Assembly: GCA_903872005.1 (NCBI GenBank)
Contig: CAIQJD010000965.1
Span: forward strand, 1-17,646
Source of the DNA: an uncultured bacterium
GTDB lineage: Bacteria; Chloroflexota; Anaerolineae; JACIWP01
Direction of reading: 5' to 3'
Length of the DNA: 17,646 nucleotides
Positions 1 through 17,646 of the stretch are shown one piece after another; the stretch's first letter is position 1, and each line of letters opens with the position of its first letter. Made by a program: the position numbers and the translations under genes. Under the pieces are notes generated by a model. That model was not told the DNA's origin. It ran no database searches and saw only the letters and a list, made by a program, of their open reading frames with translations.

Positions 1-954
1 CCGCAGCCGATCCAGTTCGCGCTTGGCCTCGCGGGCTGCCTCGGCCGGCAGGTTCGCCTCGGCGATCTTGCGCTCCAGGTCGGCGACCTCGGCCGCCTGG
101 GGGTCTTGCTCGCCCAGCTCTTTCTGGATCTGCTTGAGCTGCTCGCGCAGGAAGTAGTCGCGCTGTACCTTTTCCATCTCGCCCTGCGTCTGCGACTGGA
201 TCTTCTTGCCCAGCTCCAGCACTTCCAGCTCGCGATTAACGATGGGCGTCAGCTTGAGCAGCTTCTCTTTGACCGAGTCCATCTCCAGGATGGCCTGGGC
301 GTCGGCGATGTCCATGCGGATGCTGAAGGCGACCAGATAGGCCAGACTGCGCGGGTCATCCATGTTCATGGCCGTGGTGACCAGCTCGTCCGGCATCTGC
401 GGAGCCAGGGCGATCAGCCGGCGGAACAGCTCCACCAGGTTGCGCGAGAGCGCCTCGACTTCCAGATCGCGCTCGACCCGCTCCGGCAGCGCCTCCACGC
501 GCGCCACGAGATACGGCTCATCCTGGATAACTTCCTTGATGCGGATGCGCTCGATGCATTGCACCACCAGGCGCACCGACCCATCCGGTGACTTCATCAT
601 CCGGTGTACGATGGCGGCCGAGCCGACCGTATAGATTTTGTCGGGCGGAGGCTCTTCAAGCTCCGAATCCATCGAGGCCATCAGCCCGATCATCTTCTTC
701 TTGACGACGACGTCATCCACCAGCCGAATGGAGCGGGCCTGCCCCACCGTCAGGGGAATCCACATCATCGGATAGGCCACCATGCGGCGCACCGGCAGGA
801 TAGCCAGCTCCTCGGGGATTTCCGGCCGATCTTCGGACGGCTCGCCGGCGTCAGCGTTGTTGTTGATTTCAATGTCCATGACGAGCGGCGTCGGCTCGTC
901 CGACATCGGCTCATCCTCTTCAAAGGTTGCCCATTCATCAAAAGGGGGAAGCAT
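1..954 (-). CDS. lon: ATP-dependent protease Lon, N-terminal part (runs off left edge)
   Basis: Lon is a cytoplasmic AAA+ serine protease that degrades misfolded and regulatory proteins. The reverse complement of this stretch is open to the window edge and gives about 318 residues out of a usual 780-820. The Lon substrate-binding domain begins near residue 50 with LAILPVRRMVAYPMM and runs to about residue 240. A helical segment typical of Lon follows, with EMEKVQRDYFLREQLKQIQ and a charged coiled-coil. The AAA+ and Ser-Lys protease domains must lie to the left, outside the window. I chose the ATG at 954 because AGGAGG (965-970) sits 10 bases upstream. In-frame ATGs also exist at 975 and 906. 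The gene is 92 bases downstream of the hsp20 gene on the same strand, which fits a proteostasis pair. I found no convincing promoter in that gap. Confidence 0.95.
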   Translation of the reverse strand, partial: MLPPFDEWATFEEDEPMSDEPTPLVMDIEINNNADAGEPSEDRPEIPEELAILPVRRMVAYPMMWIPLTVGQARSIRLVDDVVVKKKMIGLMASMDSELEEPPPDKIYTVGSAAIVHRMMKSPDGSVRLVVQCIERIRIKEVIQDEPYLVARVEALPERVERDLEVEALSRNLVELFRRLIALAPQMPDELVTTAMNMDDPRSLAYLVAFSIRMDIADAQAILEMDSVKEKLLKLTPIVNRELEVLELGKKIQSQTQGEMEKVQRDYFLREQLKQIQKELGEQDPQAAEVADLERKIAEANLPAEAAREAKRELDRLR

Positions 955-1046
955 GGCTCCGCCGCCTCCTGTCATTGCCATATAATCGTCACCATAACCG
1001 ATACTTCGACCGAGACCCATGGCGCCAACGCGCCGCACCAGACGCT

Positions 1047-1463
1047 TCAGCCGGCTTTCTTGGCCGACGAGACATCGGATATTGGCACGCGCTGCGCGTT
1101 GGCTTTGGGCAGCGTCACCAGTAAGAAGCCGTCGCGATAGGTCGCCTCGACGCCGGCCGCATCCACGGCCCAGGGCAGATAGACTTCGGCGCGGAACTCC
1201 CCATAGGAGATTTCCATACGCTGATAGGCGATCTTCGATCCGCTGCGGTCAAGCCGCCGGCCGCTGATGATCAACGCCCGGCGCGCCAGATCTATGTTGA
1301 AGTCGCCTTCCGTCATGCCGGCGACCTCCACGCGCACGACGACGGCGTCGGCCGTCTCATACACGTCGGTGGGTGGTCGCCAGATACTTCCGTGCAGCCC
1401 CATGTTCCGACCAGCCTCCTTCATATTCAATCGTATTCGCTCCTCTGTAACCCCATCGGCCAT
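1047..1463 (-). CDS. Small heat-shock protein, Hsp20/alpha-crystallin family
   Basis: This is an ATP-independent holdase chaperone of the cytoplasm that keeps unfolding proteins soluble. From the ATG at 1463 it has 138 residues, a normal size. The alpha-crystallin domain starts near residue 29 (WRPPTDVYETADAVVVRVE). It contains the family signature AxxxxGxLxVxLPK as ATYRDGFLLVTLPK (residues 107-120) and ends in a short tail with VPI (126-128), resembling the IxI dimer-docking motif. The start is not certain. The open frame extends to 1523, the ATG at 1463 has only a weak AGAG-like site, and TTG 1430 or ATG 1424 lie behind GAGGAG. The domain is complete with any of these starts. lon follows 92 bases downstream. 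No CIRCE element or clear promoter was seen upstream. Confidence 0.93.
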   Translation of the reverse strand: MADGVTEERIRLNMKEAGRNMGLHGSIWRPPTDVYETADAVVVRVEVAGMTEGDFNIDLARRALIISGRRLDRSGSKIAYQRMEISYGEFRAEVYLPWAVDAAGVEATYRDGFLLVTLPKANAQRVPISDVSSAKKAG

Positions 1464-1572
1464 GTGAGTCTTCTCTGCCTGGCCGCGCGGCGCAGGCTCA
1501 CACATCAGGCAGTACCATACCATTGCCGGCCGCGCAATACTGTAATAAGCATTCCCAAGCGCCGCGCCCGCG

Positions 1573-2619
1573 TTATACCGGCCCGTTCAGCCGATCCAGC
1601 CGCTGCATGGTCTTCAAGCCGGCCAACACCAGCACGATGTCGCCGACGCGCAGAAGCGTCTCCCGATGCGGATGCATATTGACCGTTTTGCCCTGCTGGT
1701 GGCAGATGACCGACAGGTCCAGCTCATCTTCCAGCCGGCGCAGCGTCCAACCGATCATCGGCGCGGTGGGCGCGATGGTGTACTCGCCCACGGCCAGCAA
1801 ATGGCTCCCCAGATAGAATGAATGCTTGACGTTGGCGTGCATGGCGGCGGTGGCAAACATCGGCGCGGCCAAGGCCGAGGCGCTCAGCGCCGTCTGCAAG
1901 CCGAAGCCCTGCTCGACGCGGCGCGCCAGGTCCGGGTCGAACATGCGGATGACCACGCGGATGTCCGGGTTCAGCTCACGGGCGTCCAGCGCGATGTCCA
2001 GGTTCGCCAGCTCGTCGTTGGTGCAAGGGATGATGGATTCGGCATGCTCGACGCCGGCCTTGACCAGCACTTCCTGCCGGCGCGCGTCGCCCACAATGAA
2101 TGGCACGCCGGCGGACTGCACTTGCTCCGCGAAGCGGCTGTTCGCATCCTGATCCAGGGCCACGACATCGCGCCCATACTTGACCAGTTCCTGGATGACC
2201 CGATAGCCGACCTTGCCGATGCCACACACGATCACATGATGATTGTACGTAGAAGCCATTGCCGCCTGCCATTTCTGTCCGCGCTCGCGCTTGTTCATCA
2301 GCGCCGAACCGAAGCTCAATATGCCATTCGCCACGGCTGCCAGCCCGATGAAGGGGATGATGAAATAGAGTACCTGGAGATACCACACGTCCGGGAACGG
2401 CAGTGTCGGCTGGAAGAAGATCAAGGCAAAAGCCCAATAGAAGGACTGCGCCAGCCCCGGCGCCGCGCCGGTCTCGGCCATGATGTATGAGAAGTGAAAA
2501 AGGAGGCCGCCGAACAAGACGGTCGCCGAGAAGACCAGCAGCGCGACCCGCGATTCGGCGAAGAGGACGCGGATATCGCGCCACTGTGCGCGCAACATGC
2601 GTTTGAGGCGTGGAATCAT
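1573..2619 (-). CDS. Two-TM channel-like protein with RCK (TrkA-N/TrkA-C) domain
   Basis: The protein has 348 residues from ATG 2619, with GGAGG five bases upstream. Membrane segments are at about 25-45 and 80-104, with a hydrophobic re-entrant-like stretch at 57-77, so the plan is that of a two-TM potassium channel. The cytoplasmic part has a Rossmann RCK-N domain at about 127-245 with VCGIGKVGYR (GxGxxG, glycines 133, 135, 138) and the acidic strand end VVALDQD. An RCK-C-like domain occupies about 265-345. The family normally controls K+ flux in response to nucleotide or cation binding. The usual TVGYG filter is absent: the pore position reads FFQPTLPFPD. Ion selectivity is therefore unknown, and the protein could be a non-canonical channel or a regulatory membrane protein. 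It has its own promoter (2650-2678). Confidence 0.88.
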   Translation of the reverse strand: MIPRLKRMLRAQWRDIRVLFAESRVALLVFSATVLFGGLLFHFSYIMAETGAAPGLAQSFYWAFALIFFQPTLPFPDVWYLQVLYFIIPFIGLAAVANGILSFGSALMNKRERGQKWQAAMASTYNHHVIVCGIGKVGYRVIQELVKYGRDVVALDQDANSRFAEQVQSAGVPFIVGDARRQEVLVKAGVEHAESIIPCTNDELANLDIALDARELNPDIRVVIRMFDPDLARRVEQGFGLQTALSASALAAPMFATAAMHANVKHSFYLGSHLLAVGEYTIAPTAPMIGWTLRRLEDELDLSVICHQQGKTVNMHPHRETLLRVGDIVLVLAGLKTMQRLDRLNGPV

Positions 2620-2649
2620 GCCGGCCCTCCGTTCCCTCTGACCGAGGGC

Positions 2650-2678
2650 ATTGTAGCACCCTCGGCCGTCGGCGTCAA
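2650..2678 (-). promoter_or_regulatory. Sigma70-type promoter of the RCK channel gene
   Basis: Read on the minus strand, TTGACG (2678-2673) is followed by a 17-base spacer and TACAAT (2655-2650). Five of six bases match the consensus in each box. The expected transcript start leaves a leader of about 20-25 bases that contains the GGAGG site before ATG 2619. This also argues against the longer open frame up to 2733, which would begin upstream of the promoter. Confidence 0.8.
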
Positions 2679-2685
2679 TCGCGCG

Positions 2686-2722
2686 CGAACCGGCCGGCGT
2701 TGTTGAGGCGCCGGCCGGTTCG
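2686..2722 (-). terminator. GC-rich hairpin after the gdhA remnant (possible terminator)
   Basis: Perfect 14-base arms CGAACCGGCCGGCG (2686-2699) and CGCCGGCCGGTTCG (2709-2722) flank a 9-base loop. On the minus strand the hairpin lies 41 bases past the glutamate dehydrogenase stop and directly before the -35 box of the next promoter. There is no T-tract, so intrinsic termination is only possible, not shown. It may also insulate the channel promoter or stabilise an RNA 3' end. Confidence 0.5.
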
Positions 2723-2762
2723 TACTGCCTCATCCCTGTCTAGAAGGAGAGTGGATATGGTC

Positions 2763-3198
2763 TCATGGGAAGACGCCGCGGGCGCGAACGGAGCCGGCGA
2801 CCTTCTCGACGGCGCGCATGTACGCGCCCAGGCGCAGTTGGCATGATCATCGCCGTAAAGCGGCGGGTCAGCCGGCGCAGCTCATCTTCGGGCATTTGGC
2901 GCGGGTCGCAGCGCACGCCGCCCTTCGCGCCGCCATAGGGGATATCCACGACAGCGCACTTCCAGGTCATCAGCGCCGAGAGGGCTTTGACTTCGTTCAG
3001 GTTCACGTCGGGGTGGTAACGGATACCGCCTTTGCACGGCCCGCGCACGCTGGAATGTTGCACGCGGTAGCCGGTGAAGACCTCCATGCGTCCATCATCC
3101 ATCATGATCGGCACAGATACGGTCAGCTCCCGCTCCGGCTGGCGCAGGATGGCGACGATGCCCGGCTCCAGGCGCAGCCGGCCGGCAACGTCGTCCAG
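2763..3198 (-). pseudogene. gdhA: Glutamate dehydrogenase remnant (central part and N-terminus deleted)
   Basis: Intact GDH (about 415-420 residues) interconverts glutamate and 2-oxoglutarate. From 3198 the minus strand reads [19 protein letters not shown] and then the ELFV dimerisation domain with [14 protein letters not shown] and the catalytic-lysine motif PYGGAKGGV. It runs to RRFTAMIM near 2838. After a +1 frame change it reads [19 protein letters not shown] and GVFP-stop at 2763, which is the normal GDH C-terminus. The Rossmann NAD(P)-binding domain, roughly 250 or more residues, is missing. The first dozen or so residues are also missing: upstream the frame runs into a different gene with no start or ribosome site for gdhA. 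The original frame stays open to 2740. Identity of the pieces is clear. Whether the loss is biological or an assembly deletion cannot be told from here. Confidence 0.85.
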
Positions 3199-3548
3199 AT
3201 GAGGTGAATCAACGAGGCCGCCGGCGTTTCGCCGAAGGCCAGATCTTCCGGCGTGGCGTCGTAATCGGCCACATAGATGCTCTGGGCGTCTTGATCCAGT
3301 TCACCCAGATAGGCGGCGGCCTGGAGCGCCAGACCATAGCGCCAATAGCTGGCGACGACGGCGTCGCCCATGCGGAGCCGGCTCAGCGTAGCCTCCGGCC
3401 CGGTCAGGCCGGCCTTGTCGGCGCTGAAGTGGAGCGCCTGATCCATGGCGCTTTCCGCCGCCTGCGCGGCGTCCGAAAGCCGGGCCGCCGGCATGGCGAA
3501 CTGCACGTTCACGCGCGACGTGGACTTCACGGGAGCTTGCGTAGACAT
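3123..3548 (-). CDS. Hypothetical protein, 3' end apparently lost at a junction with gdhA
   Basis: The ATG at 3548 has an excellent ribosome site (AAGGAG, 8-base spacing), so the 5' end is a genuine gene start. The first roughly 115 residues look like normal coding sequence ([19 protein letters not shown], later [18 protein letters not shown] and [16 protein letters not shown]). I cannot assign them to a family. From about residue 117 the DNA switches to glutamate dehydrogenase sequence in another frame, so the last roughly 25 residues, ending at 3123, are translated gdhA in the wrong frame. The gene was therefore probably longer and separate from gdhA. A -10-like box lies at 3643-3648. No signal peptide or membrane segment is visible. 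Confidence 0.6.
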
Positions 3549-3642
3549 CGTATGTTTCTCCTTCGTTGCCCTTTGGGGGCTGCATCGTGTTTCGGTAATT
3601 TGCGCCAGCTTTGCGCCGGCGCAGCCTGTTGTTGACAGTTTG

Positions 3643-3648
3643 AGTATA
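3643..3648 (-). promoter_or_regulatory. -10-like box upstream of the truncated unknown gene
   Basis: The minus strand reads TATACT, five of six consensus bases, about 95 bases before ATG 3548. No acceptable -35 hexamer is found 16-18 bases upstream (TGCGAC at 17). It is the only promoter-like signal between the terminator at 3706-3739 and the start codon. Confidence 0.3.
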
Positions 3649-3705
3649 GCCGATGGGGCATGAAGGTCGCATAGAAATGGCCGGCCGGCCCATGAAAAAT
3701 GCATG

Positions 3706-3739
3706 AAAAAAACTTCCCTCTGGCATCCAGAGGGAAGTT
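3706..3739 (-). terminator. Strong intrinsic terminator
   Basis: Arms AACTTCCCTCTGG (3711-3723) and CCAGAGGGAAGTT (3727-3739) form a perfect 13-base-pair stem with a 3-base loop. On the minus strand the stem is followed by seven T residues (3712-3706, partly shared with the stem base). It lies 34 bases beyond the stop of the chimeric regulator ORF. It therefore closes the transcript that starts at the DapA-family operon promoter near 7300. Confidence 0.9.
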
Positions 3740-3772
3740 CTGAGCCGATCTATGCCCGGGCCGTGGGGCGCG

Positions 3773-4378
3773 TCAGCTTTCGGCCGGCGGTTCTTGGGGT
3801 GGGCAGGCCAGCATGTAGCCGCTCCCCGGCACGGTCAGGATGTAGCGCGGGTTGGCCGGATCATCTTCCAGCTTACGCCGCAGATAGCGCACATAGGCCC
3901 GCAGGTAGTCTACGTCGTCGCGATATTCCGGCCCCCAAACATTGGTCAGCAATTCCTGATGCAAAATGACCCGGTTGGGATGCAGCGCCAATTGGCGCAG
4001 CAGGCCGTATTCGGTGCGGGTGAGGGGCGCCGGCTCGCCGCGTCGCGTCACCGTGTGGCGCGCGAAGTGGATTTCCAGGTCGCCGGCGCGAAGCTGGCCG
4101 GCTGGCGCAGGTTTTCGAGCGTCAGCACGCCGACCTTCGTTTCGCCGGCGGTCAATGGGATGGCGATGGCGCTCAACGGCACGGCCGCGCCCGGCATCGT
4201 ACAGCAGCAACAGGCCGGCGTCGGCCGCTTCCAGCGTGTCCACCAGCGACGCCAGCAGGCGCGGCGCCATATTCTCCAGGCTCTCCTGAGTCGCCAGGAT
4301 GCGCGCCACATCGAACATGGTGCGTAATCGCCGATCCTGGCTCGTCTGTCCCACGGTGGACTCTGTCGGCGTCTCCAT
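3773..4378 (-). pseudogene. Chimeric remnant: GAF sensor fragments joined to KdpE/OmpR-type winged helix
   Basis: The frame is open from ATG 4402 or ATG 4378. The latter has AGAGG 9 bases upstream and is preferred. The N-terminus (RTMFDVARILATQESLENM to GLLLLYDAGRG) is the first half of a GAF domain as in sensor kinases. From about 4170 the GAF continuation (LSAIAIPLTAGETKVGVL, then TLENLRQPASFAP) is present but in another frame. At about 4087 the frame returns to a complete OmpR/KdpE DNA-binding domain, from GDLEIHFARHTVTRRGE through LTRTEYGLLRQLALHP and NVWGPEYRD to PGSGYML, ending at 3773. The rest of GAF, the kinase core and the receiver domain are missing. The simplest reading is a two-component operon collapsed by two deletions. 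The ORF could still yield a DNA-binding protein. It begins just after the third DapA-family gene. Confidence 0.75.
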
Positions 4379-4409
4379 GTCTGCTGTCCTCTTGCCCGAC
4401 ATGCCGGCG

Positions 4410-5351
4410 TCACGCTCGCAGACCGAACCGCTCCATCAGCTCGCGCAGCCCCTGCCGGATCGCCGGCGTCAGCGCCGCATCGCGCGAGGGCAGGCGCGAC
4501 ACGCCGACCGGCCGGCCGCATGCTTCCAGGGCGGCCTTGATCAACAACCCCTGACCGCCGCTGCCGGCGTCAATCTGCGCGAAGAGGGCGTTCAATGGCG
4601 TCATGAACGCATCCAGGGTGTGTTGGGCTTCGGCGTACTGGCCGGCTTCCAGCAGCTCCCATACCCGCCAGGCCCGTTCGGGATAGAACGGCGGCAGCCA
4701 GGAGAAGAAGGCCCGGCACCCCAGGATGTGCGGCACGACCGGCCACAGCCCATTGTCAATCACGACGGCGCGGGGCTGCAGCCGGCGGATGCCGGCGTAA
4801 AACGTACTGATGTCCGGCGACGACCACTTGACGCCGATGCTGTTGGGGATCTCCAACAGGCGCTCGATCAGCGTCAGCGGCATATTGTAGCCGGTGTACC
4901 AATGATTGTAGATGAGGAAACCCACCTGCGTGCTGCGCGCCACTTCCTCGAACCAGGCGACGACGTCTTCCGGCCGGCCGTCATAGTAGTACGGGCCGGC
5001 GATCTGCACGCCGGCCACGCCCTGCGCCTCGCAGAACTGGCACAGCTCGATGGTCTCGCGCACATCATTGCTCTGCACGCTGGCGATGATCGGCACGCGG
5101 CCGGCCGTGGCCTGGCAGATCGCGCCGATCACGGCCTTCCGTTCGGCGACGTTCATCATCGGGAATTCGCCGGCGGCCCCACAGGCAATGAAGATCGTAT
5201 TGCCCTGGCGCGCCCCGCGATCCAGCAGCCATTGGACGTGCGAAACGGTCGTTTCCAAGTCTACGGCGCGGTCGCCGGCGCCGAAGATCGTCGGCAGCGC
5301 CGTCACGACGCCGCGCAGCGTGCGGCGGGCTTCCTCAACGGTCAGCATCAT
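4410..5351 (-). CDS. DapA/NanA-superfamily Schiff-base aldolase or dehydratase, paralogue A
   Basis: A 313-residue (beta/alpha)8 enzyme of the dihydrodipicolinate synthase / N-acetylneuraminate lyase superfamily, whose members make or cleave 2-keto acids through a lysine Schiff base. Visible catalytic residues are Tyr148 (GFLIYNHWY) and Lys175 (SIGVKWSSPD). The pyruvate-carboxylate motif, usually GTTGE, reads GAAGE (58-62), so both threonines are alanine. This argues against a lysine-biosynthesis DapA role. ATG 5351 and ATG 5348 are adjacent, with GAGGTG closer to ideal spacing for the second. The start follows the stop of paralogue B by one base, so translation is likely coupled. It is the most divergent of the three and last in the set. 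The substrate is unknown. Confidence 0.88.
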   Translation of the reverse strand: MMLTVEEARRTLRGVVTALPTIFGAGDRAVDLETTVSHVQWLLDRGARQGNTIFIACGAAGEFPMMNVAERKAVIGAICQATAGRVPIIASVQSNDVRETIELCQFCEAQGVAGVQIAGPYYYDGRPEDVVAWFEEVARSTQVGFLIYNHWYTGYNMPLTLIERLLEIPNSIGVKWSSPDISTFYAGIRRLQPRAVVIDNGLWPVVPHILGCRAFFSWLPPFYPERAWRVWELLEAGQYAEAQHTLDAFMTPLNALFAQIDAGSGGQGLLIKAALEACGRPVGVSRLPSRDAALTPAIRQGLRELMERFGLRA

Positions 5352-5352
5352 T

Positions 5353-6288
5353 TCACCTCTGCGGCACGGGCCAGCCGGCTTGCGCCAGGATCTCGCCTAG
5401 CTCGGCCAACTGCGCCGCGCTCATCGGCAGGGTCGGCGGCCGCGATACGCCCACCGGATGCCCCATGAGCTGCATCATCCCCTTAATCATGCGCGCTTCG
5501 CCGCCCGACTCGGCTTCCATCTTCTCGTAGAACTTCCAGGTCGGCACATCCACCCGCTCGAACAGTTCGCGCGCTTCATCATATCGCTTGCTCTCCAGCA
5601 GCTCCCAGATACGCAGGTCGTGCTGCGGATAGGCGTGGGCCGTGCGGTTGATATAGCCGCGCCCGCCCAACTGGTGGCACAGCACCGGGTTGGCCTGGTT
5701 GTCCAGCACGTTGAAGTAGGGCGCGAAGAGCGCCATATCTTCGTACTTCTGTGTCGGCGGGAAGCTCCATTTGATCGCCACGACATGCTCGAAGTCGCGC
5801 ATCTTCATGAAGGTTGCCGGCAGGATGTTGCCATTGGGCCACCACCAGTTGTTGTAGATCACGATGCCGATCTCGATGGCCGCCGAGATCGCCTCGTAGT
5901 GGCGCAGGATGTCATCTTGTGAGGGCCAGGAGAAGACCGGCGGCGAGATTTGCAGGCCAATCGCGCCCAGGTCCTGGGCCAGCTTGGCGTCTTTGATGGT
6001 GCGCCGCGTGTCCTTGTGATGGATGCCGGCCACGACGGCGGCTTTGCCTTTGGCGGCCTGCACCACGGTCTGCAACAGCATGGCCCATTCGCTCTCTTCC
6101 AGCATGCCGCCTTCGCCCATGGCCGCGGCGACTTTGATCACCGCTGTGCCGGCGACGAGGCCGCTTTCCACCCAGAACTGGGTCAGCTCGGCCATGCGCC
6201 CGTAATCCACTTCCAGATCAGCGTCGAACGGCGTGGGCACGGTGGTGATGGGGCCGACGATCAGTCGGCAGAGTTCTTCGCGTTTCAT
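5353..6288 (-). CDS. DapA/NanA-superfamily Schiff-base aldolase or dehydratase, paralogue B
   Basis: 311 residues from ATG 6288, which has AAGGAG 9 bases upstream. The open frame continues to 6576 but that extension overlaps paralogue C and looks non-coding. Schiff-base machinery is visible as Tyr145 (GIVIYNNWWWP) and Lys173 (HVVAIKWSFPP). The GTTGE position reads AAMGEG (55-60), lacking both threonines. It has the same length as paralogue C and aligns to it without gaps, sharing blocks such as KVAAAMGEG, AQDLGA and FEHVVAIKW, so the two are recent duplicates by family standards. The gene starts 32 bases after the stop of C and its stop nearly touches the start of A. Family knowledge allows roles such as 2-keto-3-deoxy sugar acid aldolase or dehydratase. 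The sequence does not decide. Confidence 0.88.
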   Translation of the reverse strand: MKREELCRLIVGPITTVPTPFDADLEVDYGRMAELTQFWVESGLVAGTAVIKVAAAMGEGGMLEESEWAMLLQTVVQAAKGKAAVVAGIHHKDTRRTIKDAKLAQDLGAIGLQISPPVFSWPSQDDILRHYEAISAAIEIGIVIYNNWWWPNGNILPATFMKMRDFEHVVAIKWSFPPTQKYEDMALFAPYFNVLDNQANPVLCHQLGGRGYINRTAHAYPQHDLRIWELLESKRYDEARELFERVDVPTWKFYEKMEAESGGEARMIKGMMQLMGHPVGVSRPPTLPMSAAQLAELGEILAQAGWPVPQR

Positions 6289-6320
6289 GGATGATTGCTC
6301 CTTGGCGGCTCGCGCGCCGT

Positions 6321-7256
6321 CTAGCGATCCTGTACCGGCCAGCCCAGCCCCAGCACAATCTGGCGCAGCTCGGCCATCTCTTCCTGGCTCAAGGGGAGCG
6401 ATGGCGGGCGGGAAGCGCCCATCGGCAGGCCGCGCAAGGCCATCAGGCCCTTCGTCAGCCGGCCCTGTCCGCCGGACTTCGCGCCGATCTTGGCATAGAA
6501 GTCGCGCAGCGCCGCCTTGACCGGCTCGTGCAGCGCCGTCGCCTCGGCGTAGCGATGCGCTTCCAGCAAAGCCCACAGCTTGAGGTCATATTCCGGGTAG
6601 GCCATGCCGGTGTCCGAGATGAAGCCGTGCCCGCCCAACTGCCGGCAGCGCACCGCGCCGCCGCCGTTGTCGAACATGTTGAAATCGGCGACCAGCCGGC
6701 GCATCTCTTCATACGGCTTCTGCTCGCACAGCGGCCACTTGATGGCGACGACATGCTCGAAGTCGCGCATCTTGAAATAGGTTTCCATCTCGATGTTGCC
6801 GTGGGGATACCAGGGATGATCGTAGACGACGATGCCGATTTCGATGGCCTTGGAGATGGCCTCGAAATAGCGCAGCGTGTCATCCTGGGTGGGGCCGCAC
6901 ATGATGGGCGGTGCGATCTGCACGCCGGTCGCGCCCAGGTCCTGGGCGCGCTTGGAGTCTTCGATGGCGCGCTTGGTGTCTTTGTACTGGATGCCGCAAA
7001 CGATGGCCGCCTTGCCGCCGGCGTTTTGCACCACTGTCCGCAGCAAAGGCGGCCATTCCCAGTCGCACAACATGGGGCCTTCGCCCATGGCGGCGGCCAC
7101 TTTGATGATAGCCTTGCCGGTGACTAAGCCGCTCTCTACCCAGAAGCGGGTCGCTGCGGCCATGCGTCCCAGGTCGAGTTCGAAGTCATCGTCGAAGGGC
7201 GTCGGGACGGTTACGACCGAGCCGACCAGCAACGAGCGCAATGTAGTCCGGTCCAT
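6321..7256 (-). CDS. DapA/NanA-superfamily Schiff-base aldolase or dehydratase, paralogue C (first in operon)
   Basis: 311 residues from ATG 7256, with GGAGG 8 bases upstream. It is preceded by a strong promoter (7289-7317), so this is the first gene of the triplet. Tyr145 (GIVVYDHPWYP) and the Schiff-base Lys173 (HVVAIKWPLCE) are present. The threonine pair of the pyruvate-binding loop is replaced (AAMGEG, 55-60). The start VTVPTPFDDDFELDLGRM matches the usual superfamily N-terminus. It is gap-free alignable with B over the whole length. Differences in the loop after the catalytic Tyr (DHPWYPHGN against NNWWWPNGN) suggest different substrates or subunit roles. No signal peptide, so it is cytoplasmic. 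Confidence 0.88.
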   Translation of the reverse strand: MDRTTLRSLLVGSVVTVPTPFDDDFELDLGRMAAATRFWVESGLVTGKAIIKVAAAMGEGPMLCDWEWPPLLRTVVQNAGGKAAIVCGIQYKDTKRAIEDSKRAQDLGATGVQIAPPIMCGPTQDDTLRYFEAISKAIEIGIVVYDHPWYPHGNIEMETYFKMRDFEHVVAIKWPLCEQKPYEEMRRLVADFNMFDNGGGAVRCRQLGGHGFISDTGMAYPEYDLKLWALLEAHRYAEATALHEPVKAALRDFYAKIGAKSGGQGRLTKGLMALRGLPMGASRPPSLPLSQEEMAELRQIVLGLGWPVQDR

Positions 7257-7288
7257 GTGCTTTTCCTCCGCGCACGATTTCAGGCGCG

Positions 7289-7317
7289 ACTATAGCACAG
7301 GACGCGGCCGGCGTCAA
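7289..7317 (-). promoter_or_regulatory. Sigma70-type promoter of the three-aldolase operon
   Basis: On the minus strand TTGACG (7317-7312), a 17-base spacer and TATAGT (7294-7289) give five of six consensus bases in each box with ideal spacing. A near-palindrome GACGCCGGCCGCGTC (7315-7301) overlaps the -35 box and fills most of the spacer, where a repressor could bind. The operator role is inference. The -35 box begins 6 bases past the stop of the upstream lipoprotein gene. Confidence 0.82.
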
Positions 7318-7323
7318 TCAGGG

Positions 7324-7845
7324 CTACTTCGCAAGTTCTTGCCAGACCTCCGCGATGTACCCTTGCGCATCGGCGGTGTAGATCTGCTTGCCGGCTTCCG
7401 GTTTGCCGGCCTTGCACTTCCACTCGTACACTGTGGCCCGGCCGGCCACGTTGGCCGGGATCACATCGGCGGTCTGGTTCTTCTGGCAATAGTCGTTCAT
7501 GGCCGCGCTCGGGTCTTTGGAGGTGTTGGCCTTCTCGCCGCAAGGAATGTTGGCGCCCACGTGGCACGCCACGACCTTGCCGGCGGCGCAGCGCCAGGAA
7601 GCGCCGCTCTTCTGCACGTCGGCCGGCATATCGGCCGTGATGATCTTCTTGGCGAGCATCGCCTTGATGATGGCATCGGGAACCTTGTCGCCGGTGTAGC
7701 GCGCATCTAGCTGGGCCAACGTGCCGACGGCAGCGCAGTAGGCGAAGGGGTCGGTATAGGTGGAGGCCGATTGGGCGCAGCCGGCCAATACCACCAGCGC
7801 CGCCAAGAGTCCCACCACAATGAGCAAAGCCTTTCGTGTCCGCAT
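7324..7845 (-). CDS. Putative lipoprotein of unknown function
   Basis: 173 residues from ATG 7845, with AAGGAG 9 bases upstream. The N-terminus is a lipoprotein signal: MRTRK, a hydrophobic core to residue 20, and lipobox LAGC with the modified Cys at 23. The mature part carries six further cysteines (contexts AYCAA, WRCAA, ACHVG, PCGEK, DYCQK, WKCKA), suggesting disulfides in an extracytoplasmic protein. There are no metal or catalytic motifs I recognise. I cannot name a family. It has its own promoter (7919-7946) and a leader of about 65-70 bases. It lies between the aldolase operon and the hydrolase operon, so a surface or binding role linked to either is possible but unproven. The frame upstream to 7905 falls in the leader and is not used. 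Confidence 0.8.
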   Translation of the reverse strand: MRTRKALLIVVGLLAALVVLAGCAQSASTYTDPFAYCAAVGTLAQLDARYTGDKVPDAIIKAMLAKKIITADMPADVQKSGASWRCAAGKVVACHVGANIPCGEKANTSKDPSAAMNDYCQKNQTADVIPANVAGRATVYEWKCKAGKPEAGKQIYTADAQGYIAEVWQELAK

Positions 7846-7918
7846 GTTCCTGTTCTCCTTTGATAGCACAACGTGCGTTGTAGATGCTCTGCTTACACAT
7901 CGCAAAGTATCATGGTTA

Positions 7919-7946
7919 ATTATACCACAGAATTACATGGAGTCAA
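7919..7946 (-). promoter_or_regulatory. Sigma70-type promoter of the lipoprotein gene
   Basis: Minus strand TTGACT (7946-7941), a 16-base spacer, then a perfect TATAAT (7924-7919). The surrounding DNA is markedly AT-richer than the rest of the window. The -10 box sits inside an imperfect palindrome GGTATAATTAACC (7925-7913), and a second small palindrome CAACGCACGTTG (7880-7869) lies in the leader. Either could be a regulator site, which is only a suggestion. Confidence 0.82.
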
Positions 7947-7993
7947 TAAATCGGCGCTCAAAGGAGGCGCGTTTCAGCGCGTGGACGAAATGG

Positions 7994-8051
7994 AGGCTGG
8001 CCCCTTGCGCGCGTCTGACCGGGCGCCAGAACGCCCACAAGGGGCCAGCCT
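7994..8051 (-). terminator. Nested hairpin downstream of the membrane-protein gene
   Basis: Perfect 14-base arms AGGCTGGCCCCTTG (7994-8007) and CAAGGGGCCAGCCT (8038-8051) enclose 30 bases that contain a second hairpin, GGGCG (8021-8025) with CGCCC (8032-8036). It begins 26 bases past the stop of the membrane protein gene in the direction of transcription. A T7 run (8063-8069) lies before the stem rather than after it, so this is not a textbook intrinsic terminator. It could block 3' exonucleases or be a repeated structural element. Confidence 0.45.
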
Positions 8052-8076
8052 ATATGGGGCCGAAAAAAATGGGGGG

Positions 8077-10071
8077 CTAGAACGGGCCGGGAGTCTGCAC
8101 GGTCTCGCCAATCGCCGGCGGCGTGAAGGGCTGGTAGCGCCGGCTCTTCCAATCCCATTGCAGCCAGCGCAACGTCGTGTCTTCCAGCGGGACATCGAAG
8201 CGCAGGCGCGCTTCCAGCGGCCGGCCGTCGGGCGAGACGCCCGTCACTTCGGCGCGCATCCCGCTCAAGGCTATTTCCTGGCCCACCGTGAAGACGACGT
8301 CGCTGCTGCGGTAGAATCCATCCCCGTATTGCGCCGCAAAGGCCGGATGGGCCAGCGGCCAGATGTCCCGGGTCTTGCCCACCGGCGTCGCCGGCGGCAA
8401 AAGGTAGCCCAGTTCCGGCCGCGCCAGCAGCGTGTTCGCGTCCACGCGCGTGAGGGAGACGCGCGAGTAAGCCGGCGCCAGCATCCGCAGGCGCGCCGGG
8501 GTCGGTTCGCCGCGCGCTTCCAAGAAGCTCAACATGTACATGGCCTGGCCCGGGCTGGGGGCATTGACAATCACCACGTCCTGTTCCTGGCATTGCGGCA
8601 GTGCGCCGAGATCCGACATGGCGACGTAGACGCCGTTCTGGAAGACTCCGGGCATACAGAGTACGACGCTGGGATAAATCAGTCCTTGCAAGCCGACCAA
8701 CAGGAGGCCGAGCGCGCCGGCAGCCCAGCGCCAGGCGCGTGACGCCGGCAGCCAGCGGGCCGGCGCCAGGACGCCGGCCACCAATTGCGCCAACAGCGCC
8801 AGGGCGCCCCACCCCATGAACATCGTATGCCGCCCCAGCGCCGGGCTGATCGCGCACACGGGCGTGATGGCGAGGGCCATGCCCAGCGCCCAGAAGCGCG
8901 CCTCGGGGTTATCGCGCAGCAGCGGCCACACACCCAGGCCCAGCAGGACGATGAAGCCGGCCGCAATCAGCCAGTAGCCCCAGCGCGCGCCCAGGGAGAG
9001 GAGCGCCGGGATTCCCGGATCCGGCATCACCCATTGCCCGAAGAGCAGGCCCCCCCAGCGTTCCAGCACAGCCAGCCCAAAGCGGAAGATGTCCTGCCCC
9101 GGATCAAGGTAGAAATTGGATCCGCTGGCCCCGTAGCCCATCCACTGATAGGCCAGACGCCAGACGACGATGATCACCGCATAAGGGGCCAGGCTGAGCA
9201 GGCGCTTGCGCCAGGCGCCCCGATCCAGGCATACGGCATAGGCGAACAGGTAGAAAGCCGAGGCGATGCCGGCTTCGGCCGATAGCAGCGACAGGGCCAG
9301 GCAGAGCGGCCCGAACCATGCGCCGGCGCGCCGGCCCTCGCGCCGCCAGCTATGGTGCAATCCCAACGCCAGCAGCCCGAAGGCGGACGCCATGATGGCG
9401 TTGCGGGCGTTCAGGGCGGCCACGCCGCTGAAATGCGGCACGTTGACCGCGAAGAGCAAGGCAGCCAGGCCGGCCGAGAGCCGGCGTCCCATGATGCGTT
9501 GATAGACCCACGCCGCCAGACCGCACATCAGCCCGTACCACAACAGGCTTTGGGCGTGCATCAGCGCCGGCGTGTTGGGCCATAGCCGGTAATCGAGCCA
9601 GTGGGTGAGCGCCGCCAGCGGCCGGAAGAAGGCCACGCGCACTTCCGACGATGCCCACCAGGGGAAGAGACCTTGATCCATGAGGCGCGCCGCTTCCCCT
9701 GGCTCGGCGAAGACGAAGAGGCCCTTCAGCGCGTCTGGCAGAGAAGAGGTGAGGAGAATGGCGCGGTGCAGCAAGTCATCGTCCACGCCGAAGCCGTTCC
9801 ACAGGGTCGGCAGGCAGAAAGAGAGGGCCAGGAAGATAGCCAGGATCGGCAGATAACGATGGCTCAAGCCGGCGCGTGCCAGGCTCCACATGCTGGCCCA
9901 TAGGCTGGGCTGGCGCAAGGCGTGGCGCGTGCGGTGGTAGGTGCGCGCCGGCAGCCGGCGCAGCGTCCCCCACGTCAACAGTCCCAACGGGTTGCGCGGC
10001 AAAACCATCGCCAGGGCCGCGACAGGCCCCCAGGAAAGGAACCGCTTCCGATAGTATGAGGGCCTTTTCAA
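8077..10071 (-). CDS. GT-C-like polytopic membrane glycosyltransferase (putative)
   Basis: 664 residues from a TTG at 10071, which is supported by AAGGAG six bases upstream and by no better ATG nearby. About ten or more hydrophobic segments run between residues 72 and 500, followed by a soluble C-terminal domain of about 150 residues. The first extracytoplasmic loop has GFGVDDDLLH with acidic residues at 97-99. It is followed by FFRPLAALTHWLDYRLWP, a pattern seen in GT-C (PMT/ArnT-like) enzymes that use polyprenyl-phosphate sugars and transfer them outside the cytoplasmic membrane. The acceptor and donor cannot be read from sequence. It starts 57 bases after the stop of the Gfo/Idh gene and is probably the last gene of that operon. 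It may also be a GT-C relative without transferase activity. Confidence 0.75.
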   Translation of the reverse strand: MKRPSYYRKRFLSWGPVAALAMVLPRNPLGLLTWGTLRRLPARTYHRTRHALRQPSLWASMWSLARAGLSHRYLPILAIFLALSFCLPTLWNGFGVDDDLLHRAILLTSSLPDALKGLFVFAEPGEAARLMDQGLFPWWASSEVRVAFFRPLAALTHWLDYRLWPNTPALMHAQSLLWYGLMCGLAAWVYQRIMGRRLSAGLAALLFAVNVPHFSGVAALNARNAIMASAFGLLALGLHHSWRREGRRAGAWFGPLCLALSLLSAEAGIASAFYLFAYAVCLDRGAWRKRLLSLAPYAVIIVVWRLAYQWMGYGASGSNFYLDPGQDIFRFGLAVLERWGGLLFGQWVMPDPGIPALLSLGARWGYWLIAAGFIVLLGLGVWPLLRDNPEARFWALGMALAITPVCAISPALGRHTMFMGWGALALLAQLVAGVLAPARWLPASRAWRWAAGALGLLLVGLQGLIYPSVVLCMPGVFQNGVYVAMSDLGALPQCQEQDVVIVNAPSPGQAMYMLSFLEARGEPTPARLRMLAPAYSRVSLTRVDANTLLARPELGYLLPPATPVGKTRDIWPLAHPAFAAQYGDGFYRSSDVVFTVGQEIALSGMRAEVTGVSPDGRPLEARLRFDVPLEDTTLRWLQWDWKSRRYQPFTPPAIGETVQTPGPF

Positions 10072-10128
10072 GGGCTTCTCCTTGGATGGATTTGCCGTCG
10101 CATGGCGACTACTTCAAGTCAAGCACGC

Positions 10129-11316
10129 TCAAACCCCCGGCGCGAGGGCCTGATACTCTTGATACGTATGGGTCTGGCACGCGTCGCGCGCCATCAAGCA
10201 CATCTGGCAACTCAGGATGCCGGCTTCCAGCGGCGCGCGCGACGCGCCACGCCCCTGCATGACGCGCAAGAAGTCGTGGGCCAGCTCTTTGTCGCCGGCG
10301 AAATGTCCCTCGCTCTGCCCCTCCAACCGATGGCGCTCCACCCGGTGGCTGTGATGGTGGTGGACGACGATCTCGTCCCGATACCAGTCGAATTGCAGCG
10401 TCCCCCGATAGCCGATCAGCGTCGCGCCGCGCGCCGCCGCGCCGCGCCGGGCGTAGAAGTTCTGCGTATAGACGGCGTGCATCCCGCTCTCATATTCGAT
10501 GATGGCGCTGGCCGAGTCGTGGTTGCCGGTATCTACGGCGAAGCTGCACAGCCAGTCATTCGGCTCCCACGCCGGCGACTCGCCGCGCCGATAGAAGAGG
10601 TTGTACGGGCTTTCCATGCACGCTTCCTGGCGCGCGCATTCGACGCACTTCAAGCCGGCCGGCATATCGCCGGTGAATACCGTCTTCGACTCCATCGCGC
10701 AGATGCGTTTGGGGCGCTGGCGTACCAGGGAATTGATATAGTCCAGGTCGTGGGTGGCCTTTTGCAGCCACAGGCCGCCGGTCTCTTGATCGTCGCGCAT
10801 CCAATAGTGGTAGTAATAGTAGCCGTAGGCCGGCACATTGTTGACCGCCTGCACCTGCTCCACGGTACCGATATCGCCGCTATCCACGATATCGCGCGCC
10901 ATTTCGCACAGCGGCGAGACGCGCAGCGGGAAGGAGACCACCACCGGGCTGCTGGAGCGCGACGCGGCAGCCTGCAAGGCCCTCAACTGCTCCCAGTGGA
11001 TCGCCGCCGGCTTTTCCAGGAAGAGCGGCAGGTTGCGCTGGAGCGCCAGCACGGCATAGGGCGCGTGCAGCGAGCAGCGCGTGCCGATCAATACGCCATC
11101 CAGCGCGGCCGCGTCGAACATCTGCTCGGCGTCCGCATAGACGACCGCGTCGCGCAATCCGTCAGGATAGCTCTGGCGCAGCTCGCCGGCGCGTGGATCC
11201 ACGATCCCCACCACCCGCTCCCCCGCCCTGAAACGGGCCAACTGCGTCAAGAAGTGGCGGATGCGATGCCCGTATCCGATGACGCCCAGGCGCAAGCCGG
11301 CCGATTTGTCGCTCAT
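10129..11316 (-). CDS. Gfo/Idh/MocA-family NAD(P)-dependent oxidoreductase
   Basis: 395 residues from ATG 11316. The N-terminal Rossmann fold has GVIGYG (11-16). The dinucleotide and catalytic signature EKP is at 101-103 (FLEKPAAIHW). The C-terminal alpha/beta domain carries the active-site motif GGLWLQKATHDLDYIN with His189 and Asp190. Family members oxidise or reduce hydroxyls of sugars, inositols and amino sugars, or act through transient NAD redox as in some glycosidases. A cysteine cluster C-x2-C-x5-C (224, 227, 233) could bind metal. The start overlaps the stop of the upstream hydrolase by four bases (ATGA, 11313-11316), so the two are co-translated and probably act on the same carbohydrate. 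The substrate is unknown. Confidence 0.92.
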   Translation of the reverse strand: MSDKSAGLRLGVIGYGHRIRHFLTQLARFRAGERVVGIVDPRAGELRQSYPDGLRDAVVYADAEQMFDAAALDGVLIGTRCSLHAPYAVLALQRNLPLFLEKPAAIHWEQLRALQAAASRSSSPVVVSFPLRVSPLCEMARDIVDSGDIGTVEQVQAVNNVPAYGYYYYHYWMRDDQETGGLWLQKATHDLDYINSLVRQRPKRICAMESKTVFTGDMPAGLKCVECARQEACMESPYNLFYRRGESPAWEPNDWLCSFAVDTGNHDSASAIIEYESGMHAVYTQNFYARRGAAARGATLIGYRGTLQFDWYRDEIVVHHHHSHRVERHRLEGQSEGHFAGDKELAHDFLRVMQGRGASRAPLEAGILSCQMCLMARDACQTHTYQEYQALAPGV

Positions 11317-13361
11317 CGCAGCTCGATGACCTCCATGGTGTCTAGCGCAGCCAACGCTACCTCGGCTGCTCCGTCCACGCGGCGCAACGCGGCGGGCTGT
11401 CCATCGGAGATGCGCCGGCCGGTGCGCGGGATGCGCCCGCCCGGCAGCCGCAGCGTGACCCGCAGGTCGCGCGCCGGGATATTGGGCAGGTCGCCCTGGT
11501 AATTCACGAAGCAGAGGAGATAGCAGTCCTCCGTGGCGCTTTGCAGCAGGGTGATTTCGACGGCGGCCGGCGCGTTGCTTTCCAGGAGCAGGCCGGAGGG
11601 CGCGTAGCGGCGCAAGAGAGTCGCGCCGAAGCTCTGTTGCGCGTCGTGGGGCTGGGCCAGGAGCGAGGCATAGAGGTAGATGGCGCGGCCGGCGCCATAG
11701 GCGTGTTCGGTCAGGCCGGCATAAGGGCCGGCCGGGCCGGGCGGATTGCTGTGAAACGCCGCGAAGTGATCCAGGTCATCGGGATCGAATTGCGGCTCGG
11801 CCACGCCGGCCAGGACGCGCGCCGTGGTGGCCCGGACGCGCGGCGCGGGGTGATCGCACAACAGTGGGCCGGCGTCGGTCAGCAGGTAATGCACGCGCGC
11901 GGTGTGCGCGCCGGCGTAGGAGACGCCCAGCACGTCCGCCAGAGCGAAGTCGCCGCTCGTCGCGCCGGCCAGGTCATAATAGCTGGTCATGCCGGTGGCG
12001 ATCAGCGTGCCGCCGGCCGCCACGAAGGCGCGCAGCCGCGCGACCTCCTCCGTGGAGAGGAACGCGGCATCGTTGACCACGATGGCGGCGAGGCCGGCGT
12101 AGTCCGTCGTCTGCTCGGTGAGGACGCGATAGGGGATGCCGGCGCGCCCCAGCGCCGTTGAAGCGCCGATGACTTCGTTCAGGGCGCGTATGTCGGTGAA
12201 CGAGAGCATGTGGCTGGCCGGGTCCATGATCTTACGCAGGCTCGACCCGTTATGTTCCGGCCGCACATGCGAAGCGGAAGAGAAGTACAGGCCACAATCG
12301 GCGACCAGGGTCGGGCGCGCCGCGGCGATGGCCTCTTTGAAGGGCCGCAGCCGGCGCGAGACGGCCGCCAGCCGCGCGTAGGCGCTGGCTTCCAATGTGC
12401 CATCGGGATTGATGGCGTCAATGAAGAAATATGCGCCGGCGTTGGCGAGGGTGGTCGCCGCCGAACAAGTCAGCTCCGCTTCGGATTTGGTGGAGGTGTG
12501 GTCGAAGAGGGTCACGGTGCGCGAGGTCATGAACTCATAGGGCATGCGTTGCGATAGGGCCGCCAGCGCTTTCGTCCCCAGGCGTTGCTGGTTGCGCCCG
12601 CCGTAGAAATCGCCCGAGCCGTAGTCGCTGGCGCGGCGCAGGGCTGGACTCTGGCCGTAGTACCAGCCGTACAGCGCCGGCGCGCATTGATGCACCACCT
12701 GTAGCCCCGGCCGTACCGCTTTGGCCGCCGCGGTCAGGCTCTCGGCGAACTCCACCAGCCAGCGCTCGCGCGCTCGCTGAAAGCCGACCCAGCGCGGGTC
12801 GCTCCAATCCAGCGTCTCCGGGATTTCCGCGCCGGCCTCGCGCCGGTAGCGGCTGCGGCAGGCGTGGCAGAAGCAGACGCCCGGCCAGACCGTCATGTCA
12901 ATGAACAGGCCGTCCACATCATAGGCGACGATCTCGGCGATCTGCCGGCGGGCATAGTCGGCGTACTCGGCGTTGTTGGGGCAATTATGCCACGAGCGGC
13001 GGTAGTGTTGCTGGCCGTCCACCTGCGTCACACGCCAGGCCGGGTGGCTCTGGGCCGTGCGCCGATCATAGACGACCGTGTAATAGGCGATGGGCGCAAT
13101 GCCGGCCTGCCGCAATAACTGTATCGTCTCGCCGAAGAGGTCGCGCCCCTCCAGGTTGCGGTGGACATGCCCGACGCGCGTCGGGTAATAGCAGTTGCCG
13201 TTGTGGCAGCAGGCGTAGACCATGGCGGCATCTGCGCCGGCGCTCTGCAGCGTCGCCACAAAGCGCGCCGGGTCGAAGGCGCGCATGAAAGAGGGATCAT
13301 CTTCGCTGATGTGATTATCCACCAGGATACGGGCATACGCCGATTCAAGCGGGTGCGACAA
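11313..13361 (-). CDS. GHL6-like putative glycoside hydrolase with beta-galactosidase trimerisation-like domain
   Basis: 682 residues from TTG 13361, with a G-rich AGGGGG site about seven bases upstream. No in-frame ATG lies near. The N-terminal half resembles hypothetical glycosyl hydrolase 6 TIM barrels: VDNHISEDD, then CCHNGNCYYPTRVGHVH, IAYYTVVYDRR, and DVDGLFIDMTVWPGVCFC with Asp150 and Asp155. This is followed by a C-x-C-x2-C cluster (163-168). Glu276 (MPYEFMTS) is a candidate catalytic acid. The second half has a flavodoxin-like segment (AGLAAIVVNDAAFLSTEEV, then FVAAGGTLIATG) as in GH42-type trimerisation domains, and ends in a beta-sandwich tail. No signal peptide, so it probably acts on imported oligosaccharides. 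It is the first gene of the operon with the Gfo/Idh enzyme. The family assignment is from memory of motifs. Confidence 0.82.
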   Translation of the reverse strand: MSHPLESAYARILVDNHISEDDPSFMRAFDPARFVATLQSAGADAAMVYACCHNGNCYYPTRVGHVHRNLEGRDLFGETIQLLRQAGIAPIAYYTVVYDRRTAQSHPAWRVTQVDGQQHYRRSWHNCPNNAEYADYARRQIAEIVAYDVDGLFIDMTVWPGVCFCHACRSRYRREAGAEIPETLDWSDPRWVGFQRARERWLVEFAESLTAAAKAVRPGLQVVHQCAPALYGWYYGQSPALRRASDYGSGDFYGGRNQQRLGTKALAALSQRMPYEFMTSRTVTLFDHTSTKSEAELTCSAATTLANAGAYFFIDAINPDGTLEASAYARLAAVSRRLRPFKEAIAAARPTLVADCGLYFSSASHVRPEHNGSSLRKIMDPASHMLSFTDIRALNEVIGASTALGRAGIPYRVLTEQTTDYAGLAAIVVNDAAFLSTEEVARLRAFVAAGGTLIATGMTSYYDLAGATSGDFALADVLGVSYAGAHTARVHYLLTDAGPLLCDHPAPRVRATTARVLAGVAEPQFDPDDLDHFAAFHSNPPGPAGPYAGLTEHAYGAGRAIYLYASLLAQPHDAQQSFGATLLRRYAPSGLLLESNAPAAVEITLLQSATEDCYLLCFVNYQGDLPNIPARDLRVTLRLPGGRIPRTGRRISDGQPAALRRVDGAAEVALAALDTMEVIELR

Positions 13362-13478
13362 TAGTTACCCCCTGTTCATTCTGCGTTCTCTGCCCTGAAA
13401 ATGCACTCTCATCGCCTATGGTATTCCAGAGCGGCATTCGTGTCTGCGGTCACATCCACGCCAGCGGAAGGATAGATA

Positions 13479-13580
13479 CACCGTAGAGGCGCAGAACACG
13501 CGGAGTTTCGAAAAGGGAGGGGGCTGGGGCAGAGAATTCTTTGACATCTTCCTCTCGGCGTCCTCTGCGCCTCTGCGGTG
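13479..13580. repeat. Interspersed inverted-repeat element, copy 2 (downstream of mttB)
   Basis: The left arm CACCGTAGAGGCGCAGA (13479-13495) pairs with TCTGCGCCTCTGCGGTG (13564-13580) with one mismatch. A middle of about 68 bases carries a pyrimidine-rich CTTCCTCTCGGCGTCC stretch before the right arm. The sequence matches the repeat at 15079-15146 in the same orientation. It belongs to the CGCAGAGGCGCAGAG-type repeats that are scattered in intergenic DNA of many environmental bacteria (from memory). It ends 12 bases from the mttB stop. Confidence 0.7.
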
Positions 13581-13591
13581 CGCTCCTCCCT

Positions 13592-15016
13592 TCACGGCTG
13601 CGCCTGCCGGCGTCGGCTCCAGCGCCCGATCTCCTCGACGATCTTCTCTGGCACGGCCGGCCGGTGGCTGGCGATCAACTCCTCGGCGCGGGCATGGGCG
13701 TGGGCCAGCATGGCGTCGGTCGGCTCATTGGCGCTGCGCTCGCCCAGCCGGTCGAAGCTGCCGCGGGTATAGAATTCGCCGGCGCGCAACATCTTGATCG
13801 TGAAGGGGTCTTCCAGGAAGTGCCCGCCCGGCCCCACCGCAGCGATGGAGCTGAAAGCCAGCTTTTCCTCGCTCACTTCGATGCCGGCGGCCAGGCGCTC
13901 GCCCAGCGCGAACAGGTCGGACTGGATGATGATGAACTCGGCCGACATGCCGCAGGCGTTGTAGCACGATCCCAGCCCATTGTACAGGCCGCGGCCGGCC
14001 GTCATGGTCGGCAGGCCCAGCAGCGCGTACTCGATGCCGGACTGCGTATCGTAGCGCCCCACCATGCTGCCGGTGGATTCCGCTTCGATGGGCAGCCCAT
14101 AGAAGTCGGCCATCTGCGCGATTGCCAGCTTCCAGAGCAGCTTGTCGGCATTGTAGAAAATGATATTGCCGGTCGCCAGATCGGTCAGGGCGTTGCCGCT
14201 GGAATAGAAGATCGGCGCGCCGGGGCGCAACAACTGCGTCATCACCATCAAAAAGAGATTCTCGGCATTGCCCATCAACAGGTCGCCGGCGAAGGAAAGC
14301 GGGGCCGTCGTGCCGGCCACCGGCTCGGTCTGCGCCGCCAGGGCCAGCCCGCGTCGCGCCGTTTGCTTGACGATGTAGGCGTTGACCGGGTCAAATTGCA
14401 GCGGCGTGCGTACCGGCGCGCCCAGGGTGAGGATGCGACATTCGGCGAGGCTGCGCCCGCCGGCCAGGATTTCGGCCACTTCCAGCCAATCGTCCGCCGA
14501 TTGGCGCGTCGCCGGCGCGGCCATCAGGTGCTTGGTCGTGTGCGTGGCGAAGACTTCCAGGGTCTTGATGTAGCCGCTGGACTCCGGGACATCGGCTGGC
14601 GGCATGTCCATGCGATACAGGAAGTCTACGTTGGGCAGCGCATCGCCCAGGCGGGTGTGCCGCTCTACGTCGGATAGGAGTGGCCGGCGCGGCTTTTGCG
14701 TTTCGTAATCAATGATCCAGGGGTCCAGCACCAGGGAGCCGAAGAAGCGCTGCCGGCCGTGGATCGGGAGCGCCCTGCCGTCGCAGCGATGCAGCTCGAA
14801 CTCGGCCGGCGTGGTCGCCAATGTCTGCTGCACCAGCTCGCGTGGCAAAGTGACCGTCTCGCCGACGCCGTCCAGGCGCGCGCCGGCCGCGATGAGGATC
14901 TGCCGGCATTCTGCGTCGCCCACGCGCACGCCGACTTGTTCCAACACATCCAGCGAGCGCTGATGCACCCGCTCCATTTCGGTTTCGCTCAATACCTGGA
15001 CGACTAGCTTGCCCAT
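13592..15016 (-). CDS. MttB-superfamily corrinoid-dependent methyltransferase (non-pyrrolysine)
   Basis: 474 residues from ATG 15016, with AGGAGG six bases upstream. The whole length resembles trimethylamine methyltransferase MttB (COG5598): SLDVLEQVGVRV near the start, then MAAPATRQSADDW, AGTTAPLSFAGDLLMGNAE, a middle ending in EAESTGSMVGRYD, and the C-terminal GPGGHFLEDPFT. The reading frame contains no TAG, so it lacks the pyrrolysine of true MttB. It falls in the broad non-Pyl group, in which characterised members demethylate glycine betaine, proline betaine or carnitine and pass the methyl group to a corrinoid protein. No corrinoid protein, reactivase or second methyltransferase is present here. 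Repeat copies flank the gene on both sides. The substrate is open. Confidence 0.88.
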   Translation of the reverse strand: MGKLVVQVLSETEMERVHQRSLDVLEQVGVRVGDAECRQILIAAGARLDGVGETVTLPRELVQQTLATTPAEFELHRCDGRALPIHGRQRFFGSLVLDPWIIDYETQKPRRPLLSDVERHTRLGDALPNVDFLYRMDMPPADVPESSGYIKTLEVFATHTTKHLMAAPATRQSADDWLEVAEILAGGRSLAECRILTLGAPVRTPLQFDPVNAYIVKQTARRGLALAAQTEPVAGTTAPLSFAGDLLMGNAENLFLMVMTQLLRPGAPIFYSSGNALTDLATGNIIFYNADKLLWKLAIAQMADFYGLPIEAESTGSMVGRYDTQSGIEYALLGLPTMTAGRGLYNGLGSCYNACGMSAEFIIIQSDLFALGERLAAGIEVSEEKLAFSSIAAVGPGGHFLEDPFTIKMLRAGEFYTRGSFDRLGERSANEPTDAMLAHAHARAEELIASHRPAVPEKIVEEIGRWSRRRQAQP

Positions 15017-15078
15017 ATTGCGCCTCCTGGGGCGGAACCTCTCGCCTGGCGGATTACTCGCTGCGCCGGGAATCACCC

Positions 15079-15146
15079 ACCGCAGAGGCGCAGAGAACGC
15101 AGAGTTTTCTTTGGGTTTCTCTCCGCGACCTCTGCGCCTCTGCGGT
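15079..15146. repeat. Interspersed inverted-repeat element, copy 1 (upstream of mttB)
   Basis: Perfect 17-base inverted arms, ACCGCAGAGGCGCAGAG (15079-15095) and CTCTGCGCCTCTGCGGT (15130-15146), enclose 34 bases that include AACGCAGAGTTTTC. Translated artefactually it gives the peptide RRGAENAEF, a known spurious product of this repeat type. A 13-base piece, CAGAGAACGCAGA (15091-15103), recurs inverted at 13380-13392, just before the hydrolase start. No coding role. Confidence 0.85.
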
Positions 15147-15155
15147 AATTCCTTT

Positions 15156-16361: not shown

Positions 16362-16389
16362 ACTCGACACCTCGTTCTTGTAGTTGCCT

Positions 16390-16445
16390 CCGCCGAACCT
16401 CCCGCAGGTTTCCTAACCTGCGGGAGGTTCGGCGGGAGGTTTTTT
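16390..16445 (+). terminator. Long perfect hairpin with T-tract on the plus strand
   Basis: Two perfect 21-base arms (16390-16410 and 16415-16435; core AACCTCCCGCAGGTT) enclose a TCCT loop. Six T residues follow on the plus strand (16440-16445). The shape is a strong intrinsic terminator for plus-strand transcription, yet no plus-strand gene precedes it. On the minus strand the stem lies in the leader of apgM with no T-tract after it. It may be an interspersed palindromic repeat, or may guard against antisense reading. Confidence 0.6.
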
Positions 16446-16457
16446 CGGGGCGTAAAG

Positions 16458-16492: not shown

Positions 16493-16527
16493 GGGAGAAT
16501 CGTTGCCGTCTCCGGGCCGCCGCGTGC

Positions 16528-17628: not shown

Positions 17629-17646
17629 GAGGGGTTCTCTCCTTCG

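Follow-up and report, generated by a model that had tools for sequence, protein, structure and literature searches.

The window, meaning the whole 17,646-nucleotide stretch of DNA analysed, carries on its minus strand, at 2740-4402, pieces of four genes that alignment with relatives shows to be interrupted by four deletion-like joints, here called A to D. Read along that strand, the series opens with the 5' part of a GAF-domain sensor histidine kinase gene, probable start included (4196..4378; alignment with 8 relatives and tblastn), whose first GAF half ends at 4196 and passes through joint A (4180..4195) into the end of the GAF domain in a different frame (4090..4179; tblastn and alignment). 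At joint B (4085..4089, approximate), the GAF end, stopping at 4090, meets the winged helix of an OmpR/KdpE-type response regulator, which starts at 4084 and is complete (Trans_reg_C, 3773..4084; Pfam PF00486, positions 1-77 of 77). Next comes an unnamed conserved gene, of which the first 117 codons remain (3198..3548; alignment and protein search); these run at 3198/3197 into gdhA in another frame (joint C, 3197..3198; alignment). Of gdhA, the dimerisation domain (ELFV_dehydrog_N, 2842..3198; Pfam) is retained and, across joint D (2838..2841), a site inside the gene, is joined in another frame to the last 24 codons and the stop (2763..2837; tblastn and alignment).

An earlier note on this DNA had proposed four deletion-like junctions in the zone; all are present, each no more than about 25 bases from where it placed them (about 4170 for A, about 4087 for B, 3190-3198 for C and about 2838 for D). 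It had also described the pieces as joined out of order or out of frame. The frame does change, at joints A, C and D; the order does not, the pieces keeping the ancestral order and the strand found in relatives. Three minus-strand open reading frames overlie the pieces: Pfam assigns a Glu/Leu/Phe/Val dehydrogenase dimerisation domain to the one at 2740-3114 and a complete OmpR-type winged helix to the one at 3773-4402, and finds no family in the unnamed one at 3123-3704. The note's warning that ORF-based annotation misleads here was well founded; ORFs cross joints A/B and C. Automatic annotation of the zone gives a false GAF regulator (P0001, a 201-aa minus-strand ORF at 3773..4378 that spans joints A and B; protein search) and a false hypothetical protein (P0121, across joint C), both already in protein databases. 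As for the Glu/Leu/Phe/Val dehydrogenase itself, the window keeps the dimerisation domain and 24 C-terminal codons, and the NAD-binding catalytic domain is gone; the dehydrogenase P0124 carries both domains.

In relatives (Anaerolineae/Chloroflexi), the cluster consists of a GAF sensor kinase, an OmpR/KdpE-type regulator, an unnamed protein of ~185 residues and gdhA. When genomes were scanned with the neighbouring protein TrkA, 6 loci were recovered, under titles naming Anaerolineae, Chloroflexi or Ardenticatenia; closer counterparts came from metagenomes through protein searches. Whole-genome searches with the unnamed protein P0122 found it in 3/6, 4/400, 2/2, 9/56, 42/396 and 3/7 genomes, in sets that overlap. 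Short loci around the unnamed gene numbered 36 in all, 35 of them above threshold, and in 14 of these 35 the unnamed gene is preceded by the regulator and followed by gdhA, all on one strand. The whole series of GAF kinase, regulator, unnamed gene and gdhA is present in 7 of 14 long loci (L025, L049-L053, L056). Two others (L024, L048) carry the last three genes and have no GAF match, their contigs stopping 0.7-0.8 kb past the regulator; a gdhA match was not found in L055, and order or content differs in L026, L027, L028 and L054. In the 10 relatives sized, the cluster genes have open frames. The longest contig is 5618 bp for both P0002 (regulator) and P0123 (unnamed protein), and 52963 bp for P0003, P0122 and P0242 alike; this coincidence suggests that each set lies on one contig.

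Sizing against intact relatives, which the earlier note had proposed as a check, gives the extent of each loss. At joint A, 203 bp are absent relative to 8 of 8 relatives' loci; at joint B, 1205-1250 bp (8/8), comprising the remaining kinase and the receiver domain; at joint C, 321-425 bp (9/9), comprising the end of the unnamed gene, the spacer and the start of gdhA; and at joint D, 785 bp (9/9). The four losses sum to ~2.5-2.7 kb and reduce the coding capacity of the cluster. Joints A and D change frame because the lengths missing there are not divisible by three. The undeleted stretch within the dehydrogenase piece measures 213 bp, a length matched by 8 of 9 relatives (the remaining one is mis-gapped). 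The spacing that separates the winged helix from the unnamed gene is 704 in the window, inside the range of 467-1121 among relatives.

The 201-codon frame across joints A and B, with its complete Trans_reg_C domain and its identical recurrence across 6 contigs (that of the window counted), is what a working rearranged regulator would look like, with a single open frame linking half a GAF domain to an entire winged helix. We regard such a protein as very improbable: some 30 codons between A and B are read out of frame, the protein lacks half of the GAF domain as well as the kinase core and receiver, restoration of frame is a one-in-three outcome by chance, and the neighbouring genes are destroyed by joints C and D.

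The two-component pair had previously been framed as part of a KdpDE operon, a framing that one relative, L050, does not bear out. The kinase of the L050 cluster, the sole kinase scanned, contains GAF, HisKA and HATPase domains only and no KdpD-type sensor domain (E up to 0.01), and the window retains GAF pieces only; on the domain content of the L050 kinase, a KdpDE system is unsupported. P0002 and other relatives of the regulator are named KdpE by their sources. The window's regulator resembles the KdpD/KdpE system in its OmpR-type winged helix but differs in its setting: the cluster neighbour is gdhA, and no Kdp transporter subunit is among the families found by Pfam in the window.

The unnamed family lies between the OmpR-type regulator and gdhA (for instance at 8033-8596 in L048 and 7658-8200 in L050), and its members in the closest relatives measure 183 aa (P0123) and 190 aa (P0122). 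Sequence searches of Pfam, NCBIfam and PDB gave no match, and the predicted fold is weakly nucleotidyltransferase-like. Judging by its position, it might act with glutamate dehydrogenase or regulate it. Beyond the zone, the claim that the other genes of the window are intact holds where testable: 8 of 10 further genes have full or nearly full Pfam domains, and the other 2 are without a family. TrkA aligns nearly full-length in 5 of 6 relatives' loci, and the Lon gene extends past the contig end. Three tandem DapA-family genes on the minus strand and, further up, an oxidoreductase, a glycoside-hydrolase-like protein and an MttB-type methyltransferase are encoded at 4410-7256 and 10129-15019.

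The palindrome GCCGGC occurs 142 times in the window (1-17646; 8.05 per kb), versus 26.9 expected from dinucleotide shuffles; the loci of 11 relatives contain 0.37-2.12 copies per kb. The count in the window is explained by the 5-mers of the palindrome, from which 135 copies are expected. The pattern is similar to that of highly iterated palindromes in cyanobacteria as an extract of PMC4390886 presents them, GCCGGC being over-represented in one Oscillatoria strain.

Several observations bear on whether the joints exist in a genome at all. The joint-spanning proteins recur: P0001 has one member sequence, in the 6 contigs mentioned above, and P0121 belongs to a cluster of 3 sequences, seen through its representative, from 5 contigs including that of the window. 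Among the matches listed, the closest intact regulator is P0002, with 93% identity where it aligns (49% of the query), and its winged helix is 96% identical to that of the window over 95 columns. The closest intact unnamed proteins among the matches listed are 70-71% identical, and the closest dehydrogenase, P0124, is 93% identical over the N piece among the best 120 matches listed from the 8000 scored candidates with most words in common. No identical intact counterpart of the regulator, the unnamed protein or the dehydrogenase is among the matches listed. In the relatives' DNA that matches the breakpoints, the longest common run is 3-8 bp (8 or 9 relatives per joint), a comparison that stands in for this species' own deleted DNA. 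If this species is alike, such runs are too short for assembly-graph collapse, and since the relatives' breakpoints lack repeats of k-mer size, reads should cross the joints.

A technical artefact, in which amplification or assembly shortened an intact cluster, is somewhat unlikely on these grounds: k-mer-size repeats are absent at the relatives' matching breakpoints, P0001 and the P0121 cluster recur in 6 and 5 contigs, respectively, and an identical intact counterpart is absent from the matches listed. Its attraction is that the retained pieces tested carry no point decay and that four adjacent losses of 0.2-1.25 kb each, free of any small disruption, possibly have the look of an artefact; the 5-6 contigs, that of the window included, may also be re-assemblies of one sample. 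Were the joints an artefact, the error would be common to several contigs and of concern for protein databases. The repeat-driven form of assembly collapse, which the earlier note had offered as one of two explanations, is disfavoured by the short runs, the recurring joint proteins and the lack of an identical intact match among those listed, and the sequence comparisons favour a genuine deletion allele common to the contigs.

The condition of the retained pieces indicates the probable age of the losses. In alignment, the unnamed, winged-helix and dehydrogenase pieces have 0 window-only columns and 0 internal gaps (the GAF pieces fall outside this test), and no stops or further indels were found in the retained pieces; the GAF pieces align to 8 relatives, gap-free and stop-free in their own frames. 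At columns invariant elsewhere, the window departs at 0 of 7 in the unnamed gene, 0 of 42 in the winged helix, and 2 of 62 and 0 of 11 in the two dehydrogenase ends; close relatives depart at 0 to 2 such columns. Mean identity to outgroups is 0.389 for the unnamed piece (relatives 0.349 and 0.409), 0.739 for the winged helix (relatives 0.732 and 0.744), 0.781 for the dehydrogenase N piece (relatives 0.787-0.796, the window ranking narrowly below them all), and 0.667 for the C piece (relatives 0.667 and 0.699). Conserved residues of the unnamed, winged-helix and dehydrogenase pieces show no clear excess of changes. This lack of stops, further indels and excess change points to recent deletions, as measured against the nearest known splits. 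Four losses of 0.2-1.25 kb each with no point decay would be easier to reconcile with a short episode or an artefact than with slow decay; for gradual decay it is odd to find all four in one cluster and no small disruption among them.

Stepwise pseudogene decay through repeated independent deletions, a true hotspot, accounts naturally for four separate joints, and it would be eased if gdhA were dispensable in the clade. This may be so, because P0242, the glutamate dehydrogenase of a close relative, has a frame-shifted C-terminal tail: 41 of its 43 residues fit a shifted reading of P0125 and 39 of 43 that of P0124, and 30 shuffled tails read in the same frame reach at most 17. The shift may be an independent loss or a sequence error, and in the latter case it would lend the stepwise account nothing. 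Stops, small indels and a clear substitution excess are also absent, and the 10 relatives sized have open cluster genes. We consider stepwise decay unlikely, its odds overlapping with those of the best explanation because the deletions are genuine in both and timing alone differs. The hotspot of repeated small deletions suggested previously finds little support in losses of 0.2-1.25 kb or in the open frames of relatives, and a short episode suits the lack of point decay at least as well.

We conclude that the zone is probably a recently inactivated copy of the cluster seen in Anaerolineae relatives, one that would have lost four segments from the genome by illegitimate recombination, close in time and perhaps in one event. 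The four internal deletions would have taken the middle of the GAF domain, the kinase core plus receiver domain, a stretch from the late part of the unnamed gene into the beginning of gdhA, and gdhA's catalytic domain. Illegitimate recombination, with little or no homology, is indicated by the relatives' breakpoints, which are without repeats. The deletions would have followed closely upon one another, possibly as a single event; with function gone after the first, further deletions would have been free of cost. A doubtful but conceivable extension of this reading is a single episode, in which a local burst of end joining or template switching would have removed ~60% of the cluster in a free-living bacterium and the product then spread through the population. 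If real, the zone represents a fresh multi-deletion gene loss, caught ahead of point decay.

Pseudogenes formed by deletion are a known kind in bacteria. The window resembles them in its gene fragments in ancestral order, its out-of-frame joints and its flanks, intact where testable, but differs in that adjacent genes have lost four sizeable segments and carry no point decay. A second parallel is starved E. coli, in which, according to an extract of PMC3161906, bursts of chromosomal structural change occur that are mostly inversions and duplications tied to gene amplification, deletions making up 4 of 6 secondary events. Unlike that system as the extract describes it, the window has deletions only, at one locus, and their timing is inferred; what the two have in common is that several structural changes are possible in one lineage.
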